Of a stretch of DNA of 64,000 nucleotides, positions 56,018 through 58,493 are shown piece by piece. The stretch comes from Bacillus sp. N1-1 (GTDB taxonomy: Bacteria > Bacillota > Bacilli > Bacillales > Guptibacillaceae): assembly GCF_009818105.1 (NCBI RefSeq), contig NZ_CP046564.1:4278001-4342000 (forward strand), given 5' to 3'. Position 1 is the first letter of the stretch. The number at the start of each line of letters is the position of its first letter. A program made the position numbers and the translations under genes. The notes under the pieces are model-generated. The model saw nothing but the letters and a program-made list of their open reading frames with translations. It was not told where the DNA came from and made no database searches.

Positions 56018-56068
56018 TTAACGTAGAAGTTGTAGTACAGCTTGAGGCTGTTGGTTGGCTTGCTTTGC
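56018..56068 (-). other. Second copy of the flagellin C-terminal coding segment (3' exon of the hag intron)
   Basis: Sixteen codons plus stop: GCA AAG then QANQQPQAVLQLLR and TAA. It repeats the C-terminus already encoded upstream (AQANQSSSAVLQLLR, 56386-56433), has the same length up to the stop, and matches typical flagellin ends even better. The nucleotide sequences differ at most third positions, so this is not a recent duplication. It starts right after the intron P9 hairpin, as expected for a 3' exon. It is expressed as protein only if the intron is spliced. Confidence 0.75.
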
Positions 56069-56385
56069 CGCTGTTCCTTTCGGATACAGAATAGACTATA
56101 TCTTCACCTCTCGTGTTCGAAAGGGCCGGGCACTTCGAATGGTGTTTGCCACCCTACGGATTTCATCACCATAGCTTTCGCCTTAGATGGTTTATCCTAG
56201 TCGTTGAACCTTCTCCACTCTTTCGAGACAGGAGCTTGGCTGCTGATTATCCAATCTTGATTCTTTTCAACCCATCACGCTCACCGTTTCCAGTCACGTT
56301 GTGGGGAATCAAACTTAAGGAAGTTCCAGCAATTCACCCGGTTATAATCTTACCCGTTACCAGATAAGACGCCCTGTACAATCAA
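56069..56385 (-). ncRNA. Group I intron (subgroup IA-like), ORF-less, at the 3' end of hag
   Basis: Minus-strand RNA with the full catalytic core. P2: GTCTTATC / GGTAAGAT. P3: CCGGGT (56336-56341) with GCCCGG (56126-56131). P4: AATTGCTGG (from 56334) with AATCAGCAG (from 56248). P6 has a GAAA tetraloop. P7: GACTA within GTTCAACGACTAGG (56196-56209) with TAGTC within AAGATATAGTC (56094-56104). P7.1 and P7.2 hairpins between P7 and P3 place it in subgroup IA. P8 closes AACA, and P9 (56071-56089) has a GAAA loop. The 3' splice site must lie at about 56068-56070. The 5' splice site is not fixed and may lie inside the last hag codons. No homing endonuclease is present. Confidence 0.88.
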
Positions 56386-57237
56386 TTATCTTAGCAGTTG
56401 AAGCACTGCAGAAGAACTTTGATTGGCTTGAGCTAACATTGCTTGTGACGCCTGGTTAAGAATGTTGTTCTTAGTGAAGTCCATCATTTCTTTTGCCATG
56501 TCTACGTCGCGGATACGGGATTCTGCGGCAGTAAGGTTTTGAGCAGTAGTACCAAGGTTGTTAATTGAATGTTCAAGACGATTTTGAACTGCACCTAATT
56601 TTGAGCGTTCTTCAGAAACTAAAGTTATTGCCGTATCGATGGTTGTTATTGCTGCACTTGCTACTGTATTAGTAGAAGAAATATCTATAGCATCTGCCGT
56701 CTCATCATCGGCAGTAGCTACACTAAGACCTGTACTACCAGTCATATTTGAGATAGTAATAGAAATTGTTTGATCTTGGTTTGCACCTACTTGGAAATTA
56801 AACGCTCCTGAGCCTGTGCTAGTTCCATCAAGAAGACTTTCTGTATTGAATTCAGTATTAGTAGTAATTCTGTTTAACTCTTTTGCTAACTGATTTGCTT
56901 CTGTTTGAAGAGCTTTTCTATCGTCTACATTATTAGTATCGTTGGAAGCCTGTACAGCTAATTCACGCATACGTTGTAAAATTGAATGCGACTCATTTAA
57001 ACCGCCCTCAGCAGTTTGAAGTAAAGAAATTCCATCTTGAGAATTTCGACTTGCCTGCTCAAGACCACGAATCTGACCACGCATTTTCTCGGAAATTGAA
57101 AGTCCCGCTGCATCGTCCCCAGCGCGGTTAATACGAAGACCAGAAGAAAGCTTCTCCATGTTCTTAGATGCGTTCAATTGGTTCGCACCCATCTGATTGT
57201 ACGTGTTCATTGCTGCTAAGTTGTGATTAATAATCAT
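56386..57237 (-). CDS. hag: flagellin
   Basis: 283 residues: MIINHNLAAMNTYNQMGANQLNASKNMEKLSSGLRINRAGDDAAGLSISEKMRGQIRGLEQASRNSQDGISLLQTAEGGL at the N-terminus, a short variable domain (about 125-215), and the C-terminal SKLGAVQNRLEHSINNLGTTAQNLTAAESRIRDVDMAKEMMDFTKNNILNQASQAMLAQANQSSSAVLQLLR. It forms the filament and is exported with FliS. I chose the ATG at 57237. The ATG at 57255 lies in the ribosome site (GGAGG). Transcribed from a perfect sigma-D promoter, translationally controlled by CsrA. A group I intron and a second C-terminal segment follow. Confidence 0.95.
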   Translation of the reverse strand: MIINHNLAAMNTYNQMGANQLNASKNMEKLSSGLRINRAGDDAAGLSISEKMRGQIRGLEQASRNSQDGISLLQTAEGGLNESHSILQRMRELAVQASNDTNNVDDRKALQTEANQLAKELNRITTNTEFNTESLLDGTSTGSGAFNFQVGANQDQTISITISNMTGSTGLSVATADDETADAIDISSTNTVASAAITTIDTAITLVSEERSKLGAVQNRLEHSINNLGTTAQNLTAAESRIRDVDMAKEMMDFTKNNILNQASQAMLAQANQSSSAVLQLLR

Positions 57238-57418: not shown

Positions 57419-57799
57419 TTACTCTTCCTTCTCATAAATCCCAGGCAAATAAGCCTCAAGTCCATTCCCATCCGGATCATAAAACTTAAAATGAGCCACT
57501 CCAGCCTCTTCATCAACCGTGACGCCACGCTCTCGTAGCACATTCTTAAACGTTTTCGCATGCTTCTCTGCTAGATGAAGCACAGGATATGAGCTGCTCG
57601 ATTCAGCCGAAGGAAGCTCTTCCCCTTCCTTCAACTCAATCAAACAAATCGCCGTCTGCCCTTCACCAACGCCAAGCACCACGGTACCACCATAGTTCTT
57701 TGTCACATGAAGACCGAGCATTTCTTCATACCAGTTCACTGCATTCTTTATATCCCGTACACGAATGTTCACTTGATAAACGCCTTCAAAGAAACTCAT
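57419..57799 (-). CDS. VOC (glyoxalase/bleomycin-resistance fold) protein
   Basis: 126 residues with two beta-alpha-beta-beta-beta modules: VYQVNIRVRDIKNAVNWYEEMLGLHV and HFKFYDPDGNGLEAYLPGIYEKEE. Metal ligands are plausible (His in VLHLAEKH or AHFKF, Glu in GLEAY). Such proteins range from glyoxalases to non-enzymatic binders, and the substrate cannot be told. It starts 10 bases after csrA with GGAGGG 8 bases before the ATG, so it is co-transcribed with fliW-csrA just upstream of hag, an unusual place for this family. Confidence 0.82.
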   Translation of the reverse strand: MSFFEGVYQVNIRVRDIKNAVNWYEEMLGLHVTKNYGGTVVLGVGEGQTAICLIELKEGEELPSAESSSSYPVLHLAEKHAKTFKNVLRERGVTVDEEAGVAHFKFYDPDGNGLEAYLPGIYEKEE

Positions 57800-57809
57800 C
57801 AAGTCCCTC

Positions 57810-58043
57810 CTATGAACTCGTTTTTTTCCTGAACTCCTTCAAATCCTCCAGGCTAAACTCCTGCATCGCCGCAAGCTTATTTTCCGATTGAATCGCTTCA
57901 TATACTTCTTTTCGGTGGATGGCAATATTCTTCGGTGCTTCTACACCAAGCTTCACCGTATCGCCGTCAATGCTAATAATCTTAAGTTCTATTTCATCAT
58001 TAATGACAATCGATTCGCCTTTTTTACGTCCAAGTACGAGCAT
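57810..58043 (-). CDS. csrA: translational regulator CsrA
   Basis: 77 residues: [52 protein letters not shown], the complete CsrA fold with the RNA-binding [12 protein letters not shown] strand, and the longer C-terminal helix typical of FliW-regulated firmicute CsrA. It blocks hag translation when cytoplasmic flagellin is low-to-normal. FliW relieves or restores this by binding Hag or CsrA. Its ATG directly follows the fliW stop. Confidence 0.96.
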
Positions 58044-58493
58044 TTACTCCGCCTCCTCTGTGTTCACTTGCTTTAAGAGAGGTTCTTTGATGCCATACTC
58101 CTGTTTGAGGACAAGTTGTTTTCCAGTGCGTTCTTCGGTGTTAAATATAAGCGGTGCTTTTAAATTCATTGTCGCTTCTTTTAATGAGCCCTGAACCGTA
58201 AGAATCGAGAGCACGAGCGCGTGGGCTGGATCGGATAGATTTAGCTGAGCGAGCGTGCTGTCATCAAGGTTTACTTCATAATTTGGGTAAAAGGAAAACG
58301 GATCCGCGAGGAAAAAGCAAAGGCCGCTTTCTTCTGTTGATTGTAAAAAGTAAAAAGGAGACTCATCTTTGTCATCGGCGGGTAATAGACAGTAAGTTGT
58401 AAAGTGCTCAAGGCCAGGGATGCCACTTTCAAACGTGACGAGACGTTCTTCGGTGACGTCCATTTCTCCAAAGCGTGCAGTATGTAATTTCAT
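58044..58493 (-). CDS. fliW: flagellar assembly factor FliW
   Basis: 149 residues: FGEMDVTEERLVTFESGIPGLEHFTTYCLLP, ESPFYFLQSTEESGLCFFLADPFSFYPNYEVNL and LTVQGSLKEATMNLKAPLIFNTEERTGKQLVL, the FliW pattern. It binds either flagellin or CsrA, coupling flagellin synthesis to secretion. It is preceded by a sigma-A promoter 34-61 bases from the start. Confidence 0.95.
   Translation of the reverse strand: MKLHTARFGEMDVTEERLVTFESGIPGLEHFTTYCLLPADDKDESPFYFLQSTEESGLCFFLADPFSFYPNYEVNLDDSTLAQLNLSDPAHALVLSILTVQGSLKEATMNLKAPLIFNTEERTGKQLVLKQEYGIKEPLLKQVNTEEAE

Follow-up and report, generated by a model that had tools for sequence, protein, structure and literature searches.

Group I introns in flagellin genes are an already known kind of element (2009, 2012). 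They have been described in thermophilic Bacillus and Geobacillus (Hayakawa and Ishizuka 2009, 2012, as cited in PMC3984707 and PMC4853749), and one of the citing passages characterizes them as group IA2 introns with temperature-dependent splicing that promotes motility at higher temperature (PMC4853749). Here, an intron at the end of the flagellin gene hag of Bacillus sp. N1-1 was analyzed, which is part of a stretch of 64,000 nucleotides (NZ_CP046564.1, positions 4,278,001 to 4,342,000 of the forward strand; this whole stretch is called the window). The intron starts with a short coding segment, the spare tail, and we consider it probable that it is a fail-safe intron, i.e., that spliced and unspliced hag mRNA would each give whole flagellin. 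Like the thermophile introns, it is a group I intron in a flagellin gene of the Bacillales, and Geobacillus, Anoxybacillus and Parageobacillus belong to the intron family described below. The citing passages mention neither a complete ending encoded by the intron nor a spread among mesophiles, both of which are features of the present family. An intron-borne spare ending was not found in a search of the open-access literature, the coverage of which did not extend to the two Hayakawa and Ishizuka papers.

Further systems are similar in part. C.te.I1, from Clostridium tetani, is a group II intron that resides in a gene of the surface layer and is alternatively spliced (PMC3919590). In both cases a self-splicing intron resides near the 3' end of a gene for a surface protein, and the C-termini of the spliced and unspliced forms differ, which for hag is a prediction. 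C.te.I1 has four alternative downstream exons and was found in one genome at the time of that paper (PMC3919590), whereas the hag intron belongs to group I, has one 3' exon, carries an ending of equal length and nearly equal sequence, and occurs in many genera. Next, some group I introns of bacteria have an in-frame stop codon early on, and a review views this stop codon as allowing the intron to fold without interference from ribosomes (PMC3984707). The hag intron also has a stop codon soon after the 5' splice site, but in this case the frame before the stop encodes a conserved protein ending of the working type. The last example is a group I intron of Clostridioides difficile controlled by cyclic diguanosine monophosphate, in which splicing restores a ribosome-binding site (PMC8987985). 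It is likewise a bacterial group I intron that serves the expression of its host gene; in contrast, both hag RNA forms would yield the full protein.

The predicted arrangement at the end of hag is as follows:

56431..57237, minus strand: hag (flagellin) 5' exon, from the likely start codon ATG 57237 to the Ala codon GCT, the last base of which is the predicted 5' splice site (open reading frame; Flagellin_N/Flagellin_C; intron-less sister genes)
56063..56430, minus strand: group I intron, 368 nt, predicted ends (Rfam; empty-site comparison; covariation)
56386..56430, minus strand: spare tail in the intron, QANQSSSAVLQLLR and stop codon (sequence; conservation; selection)
56018..56062, minus strand: hag 3' exon, QANQQPQAVLQLLR and stop codon (sequence; sister-gene comparison)

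The hag product of the window matched Flagellin_N (E value 7.8e-48) and Flagellin_C (E value 5.9e-30). Its start codon was picked by eye from the preceding GGAGG, and the start given by the open reading frame tool lies 18 nt earlier. The ends of the intron were set by comparison with two sister species that have an intron-less hag gene, G005 (L222) and G006 (L246/L250, one genome). These genes end with AMLS-QANQQPQAVLQLLR, and their 3' untranslated region (UTR) is nearly identical to that of the window. Because they join both exons, the window gene can be divided into a 5' exon up to GCT (56431), 368 extra nucleotides (56430-56063) and the 3' exon CAAGCCAACC. Group I introns require a U before the 5' cut and a terminal G; the base preceding the insert is indeed a U, and its last base, as placed by the intron-less sister genes, is G56063. 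The 5' cut is predicted after GCU (56431) and the 3' cut after G56063. As the intron start is set at 56430, the first C-terminus, QANQSSSAVLQLLR, corresponds to the first 45 nt of the intron.

The original prediction had seen that the hag frame closes with the full C-terminus QANQSSSAVLQLLR (stop codon at 56388-56386) and that a second ending, QANQQPQAVLQLLR followed by TAA (56062-56018), lies behind P9, and both were confirmed. The comparison with intron-less relatives that it had proposed revealed the same two exons joined in G005 and G006. Its intron extent was right for the core, but the intron is now predicted to start 45 nt earlier in the reading frame (56430) and to end at 56063 rather than at the end of P9. 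The first of its two models, an exchange of the endings by splicing, is supported as a prediction. Its splice site had to be corrected to the position after GCU 56431, so that the 14 residues QANQSSSAVLQLLR would be exchanged for QANQQPQAVLQLLR.

The identity of the intron was verified with Rfam. The model RF00028 (Intron_gpI) matched the minus strand of the window at 56394-56071 with 82.3 bits (gathering threshold 50) and an E value of 2e-20, and the match comprised all 253 model positions. It was the single RF00028 match across the 4.5 Mb genome. The search had been suggested together with the claim that a group I intron lies at the end of hag; the full-length match bears out this claim, and all pairings named at that time were found. 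The following parts are relevant for the fold:

56094..56369, minus strand: catalytic core, P2 to P8 and P7 (Rfam; covariation)
56071..56089, minus strand: P9 hairpin (Rfam; covariation)

The fold was analyzed with 84 pairs in 45 diverse related introns, to which the following pairing values refer. In total, 94.5% of 3769 cells were paired. Two-sided changes were observed for 47 of the 84 pairs; shuffles gave 29.0 and slid versions no more than 24. The covariation score was 0.363 versus 0.143 (shuffled) and at most 0.090 (slid). Judged by these comparisons, the intron fold is maintained by selection. The core is of subgroup IA and contains the pseudoknotted P3/P7, with P3 paired in 99.7% and P7 in 100% of the cells. 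The extra stems P7.1 and P7.2, which are typical of subgroup IA, were paired in 99.4% and 96.6% of the cells, respectively, and both showed two-sided changes. A phage origin was also considered and rejected: 88 phage records matched, but among the 20 listed the coverage of the query does not exceed 33% and is confined to the core, and no record reaches 80%.

The spread of the spare tail was analyzed with two scans. The first scan was tail-blind, i.e., its pattern was confined to the intron's 3' end. Across 397 genomes of the order it matched 84 places, which are found in 73 of these genomes. Three of these are repeat copies in G017 that were not separately examined, four are non-hag loci (L160, L165, L192, L197), and four lack a readable 5' exon (L183, L191, L199, L213), leaving 73 distinct hag loci. 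The intact tail of 14 codons plus stop codon was present in 70 of these 73 readable introns. As to the three exceptions, the tail of L150 is interrupted by stop codons (codons 1 and 7), that of L216 has a shifted frame, and L178 has no tail. Natural losses were one-sided: the 3' exon is whole in all three exceptions, and in L172 the tail is whole, with a decayed 3' exon and guide sequence. The second scan required the tail spacing and resulted in at least 117 stretches, including two non-hag stretches (L038, L121). Among the matches listed, hag and the tail were present in 115 of 117, and the 3' exon was detected automatically in 107 of these 115. Most of the eight misses were near a sequence end, and no 3' exon was found for L127. 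The genera with tail introns among the matches listed included Exiguobacterium, Planococcus, Sporosarcina, Brevibacillus, Geobacillus, Anoxybacillus, Parageobacillus and Caloranaerobacter, the last of which is clostridial. Both scans combined gave a set of 146 loci; a set of 142 omits L150, L172, L178 and L216.

The tail is conserved at the protein level. Residues 9-13, VLQLL, were fixed in 142 of 142 tails, with varying codons. The mean ratio of nonsynonymous to synonymous changes (pN/pS) was 0.209 for 133 distinct tails, and it was 0.365 for codons 2-8 and 0.101 for codons 9-14. For comparison, the 3' exon had a value of 0.119, and the final 14 codons of exon 1 had a value of 0.202. In seven genes of the window's genus the tail had zero nonsynonymous and five synonymous codon changes, and the 3' exon zero and three, respectively. 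Comparative evidence of this kind indicates that the tail is under purifying selection and kept as protein. A recent transfer of 3' exon sequence to the intron by copying was not supported by a third-position signal: the third positions of the tail matched the own 3' exon at 0.4316 and other 3' exons at 0.4321. The tail looks like an old, separately maintained ending.

These results bear on the second model of the original prediction, according to which recombination has repaired the gene, so that the tail serves as its sole ending, and the intron and the 3' exon are a leftover in the 3' UTR. Intron-less hag genes are common among the relatives, and probable relics do exist, i.e., L172 as well as L191 and L199, in which an intron-less hag is followed by an orphan 3' piece of the intron at a distance of 1.5 and 1.2 kb, respectively. 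From their sequences, these relics look different from the window locus, for which constraint on the core pairs and on the 3' exon persists in the genus and the family. In addition, the same layout recurred in both scans, the tail appears to be old and widespread, and the third positions gave no sign of recent conversion. This explanation is disfavored, and we regard it as very unlikely for the window.

P1 and the 3' splice site were analyzed next to the tail, and the following elements were found:

56371..56374, minus strand: guide sequence GGGC, with the predicted partner GCU↓C (56433-56430; the arrow marks the cut), together the base of P1 (invariant in 45/45 introns)
56419..56425, minus strand: 5' arm of the P1 extension, CAAUCAA, tail codons 2-4 (duplex and partner-exchange test)
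56379..56385, minus strand: 3' arm of the P1 extension, UUGAUUG, directly after the stop codon (duplex and partner-exchange test)
56057..56069, minus strand: small hairpin spanning the 3' splice site, GGC-AAAG↓CAA-GCC (pairing comparison)

At the predicted cut, U56431 forms a U·G pair with G56373, and this pair is UG in 45 of 45 introns. The codon at the junction is GCT in 73 of 73 intron genes of the tail-blind set, compared with 23 of 42 Ala-bearing genes without this intron (Fisher p 1.8e-10, kinship ignored; 3 of 45 intron-less genes had been removed as relics, leaving 42). In the sister genes of G005 and G006 it is AGT or AGC, not GCT. The P1 extension in the window is a stem of 7 bp past an internal loop, and it consists partly of tail codons. 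The true arms had a duplex energy of -5.98 kcal/mol versus -3.82 kcal/mol after exchange of partners (sd 0.15, z -14.7; 125 distinct arm pairs; kinship ignored). The remaining tail and the stop codon are located in the P1 loop, and therefore P1 had been missed. The earlier statement that there was no convincing P1 helix does not hold, as P1 is predicted to be formed by GCU↓C with GGGC plus the stem of 7 bp. In 69 of the 70 intact tails, the stop codon ends 7-12 nt ahead of the guide sequence, the exception being L172.

The outer pair of the hairpin at the 3' splice site was GC in 27, CG in 14 and GU in one of the 45 introns, and it was unpaired in three. In this hairpin, the third base of the Ala codon in the 3' exon is coupled to a base of the intron, with CGC/GCG and GGC/GCC as the two forms (L036 versus others); the form TGC/GCA was seen once, in the larger intron set. 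5' splice sites within the tail, e.g., CTGCT↓AAG, were also tried, and they gave no sensible protein. They had been suggested by a match between GTACAG, ahead of the guide sequence, and CTGTAC in the window's 3' exon, a match that is not conserved in relatives.

With tail codons 2-4 in a covarying stem, the tail might be kept only as RNA, i.e., as P1 stem and loop, with an incidental coding sense. However, the lowest pN/pS was found for codons 9-14, which are in the loop, and residues 9-13 were fixed despite the codon variation. Furthermore, L178 has a shorter P1 without the tail. We consider it most improbable that RNA structure is the sole reason for the presence of the tail.

For the fail-safe intron the following mechanism is proposed. 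The gene hag has the coding potential for two full endings, and the alternative mRNAs are predicted. The unspliced mRNA would encode a flagellin ending with QANQSSSAVLQLLR, and the spliced mRNA would encode a flagellin ending with QANQQPQAVLQLLR, the usual type in genes without this intron, 23 of 42 of which have the QANQQPQ ending. Bacterial mRNA is translated during its synthesis, and a ribosome may arrive at the intron ahead of splicing. Such an early ribosome would complete flagellin on the tail and would terminate just ahead of the guide sequence, clear of the catalytic core. The tail would avert a defective filament subunit or an unfolding of the ribozyme by the ribosome. Defective ends in so abundant a protein should harm the filaments, and this cost would be removed by the tail. 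Splicing should be in competition with translation of the tail, since the 5' splice site and the guide sequence would both lie under the ribosome. The balance between splicing and translation could be set by CsrA and FliW, the genes of which are close upstream of hag:

57810..58043, minus strand: csrA (Pfam PF02599)
58044..58493, minus strand: fliW (Pfam PF02623)

Both are regulators of hag translation in B. subtilis. A glyoxalase-family gene is located between csrA and hag (window 57419-57802, minus strand). The only other flagellin-like gene in the genome is 32% identical to hag and has a weak match to the C-terminal domain; it presumably encodes a hook-filament junction protein. Therefore, both endings would come from one filament gene.

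Several points weigh against the fail-safe intron. Splicing in this species is a prediction from the sequence. For the stem P7.1a, only 61.8% of the cells were paired. The four P1 pairs at the cut were invariant in 45 of 45 introns and hence have no covariation support, and the P1 loop is unusually large. A P10 pairing between the guide sequence and the 3' exon was looked for by eye only and was not established; the near-invariant start of the 3' exon gives covariation no power here. Kinship was ignored in both the exchange test and the Ala codon test. At all positions the tail matched its own 3' exon slightly better (0.701) than others (0.691, sd 0.003), a small excess that would fit matched residues such as the last one, which tail and 3' exon have in common in 138 of 142 cases. 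Finally, the tail was identical to its own 3' exon in 0 of 146 cases, and a pure spare part need not differ.

The last point could also be explained by regulated alternative endings, i.e., tails that differ in their job (e.g., in binding of a chaperone or in the stability of the filament) and the ratio of which is set via splicing by temperature or, through CsrA-FliW, by translation load. Position 2 is Ser in 112 of 142 tails and Ala in 141 of 142 3' exons, fliW and csrA are close by, and splicing of the thermophile flagellin introns depends on temperature, as stated in a passage citing them (PMC4853749). However, VLQLL is present in both endings and the last residue is mostly equal, so the functions look alike. 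In addition, the differing codons also build the P1 stem, which could explain the differences, and genes that have lost one ending exist. Regulated alternative endings appear unlikely to us, and the fail-safe intron is preferred.

When a self-splicing intron is located in a protein gene of a bacterium, ribosomes that arrive before folding is complete are a standing problem. The present intron family, which is widespread, appears to answer it by encoding a working-type end of the host protein within itself. If this is true, retention of the intron does no harm to a protein that is among the most abundant of a motile cell, and gene finders, which halt at the stop codon of the intron, record the unspliced ending for many flagellins. 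The hag intron is a directly testable case of long-term accommodation between intron and host, and of a bacterial gene that gives rise to two forms of its protein.

Related hag genes, but not that of the window, can have a group I intron at a second site. It is located after RDVD, e.g., in L004, L005, L006, L020, L023 and L025. The codon GAT was found at 116 of 116 RDVD junctions, and the exchange test for the P1 extension of this sister intron gave z -8.4. A search that was blind to its ending yielded 83 places in 73 of 397 genomes, representing 82 distinct stretches; L275 and L276 are not introns, leaving 80. The unspliced frame, YALAA or similar, ends with AA in 71 of 80, with VA in 6 (L004 was counted as YASVA), and with AV, VS and AS in one case each, and thus with AA or VA in 77 of 80. 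The sister intron has AA at the very end, as expected for small C-terminal residues of the ssrA type. Tags of the transfer-messenger RNA (tmRNA) were readable in 13 of 27 genomes, and 13 of 13 end with AA. In 3 of 11 genomes compared (G031, G039, G044), the intron end and the tag had the same five terminal residues, YALAA. At nine examined non-hag RF00028 loci, an AA ending was found in none of the six that have a frame into the intron. The AA codons of the sister intron also pair with bases behind the stop codon (z -7.9), and because of this pairing the AA conservation may be partly due to RNA structure. Selection at the protein level on the AA end is likely from these sequences, and a ClpXP-type protease is predicted to degrade the truncated product. 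In view of the degron-like end, selection seems to have acted on the fate of unspliced products in more than one manner. At the window's site, the tail-less intron L178 (genome G354), which has a shorter P1, has an unspliced frame that ends with QFEQIAA, likewise AA; another copy in this genome, L151, has the tail.

A wider and rather doubtful generalization is that the flagellin introns of Bacilli are host-owned devices with two outcomes, the first codons of each intron specifying what becomes of the protein made before splicing. The unspliced product would be used at the C-terminal site, with its spare tail, and destroyed at the RDVD site, with its ssrA-like degron. The ratio of spliced to unspliced RNA might read out hag translation as set by CsrA-FliW, because a terminating ribosome would sit on the guide sequence, and the C-termini of the filament might report translation load or temperature.

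A side observation concerns the tmRNA gene. Weak group I matches overlap the 3' end of the tmRNA gene at G021:C7:15860-16141 and G040:C5:155762-156038. ARAGORN detected no tmRNA in 14 of 27 loci, including G021 and G040, and group I introns in tmRNA genes are mentioned in PMC11915505.
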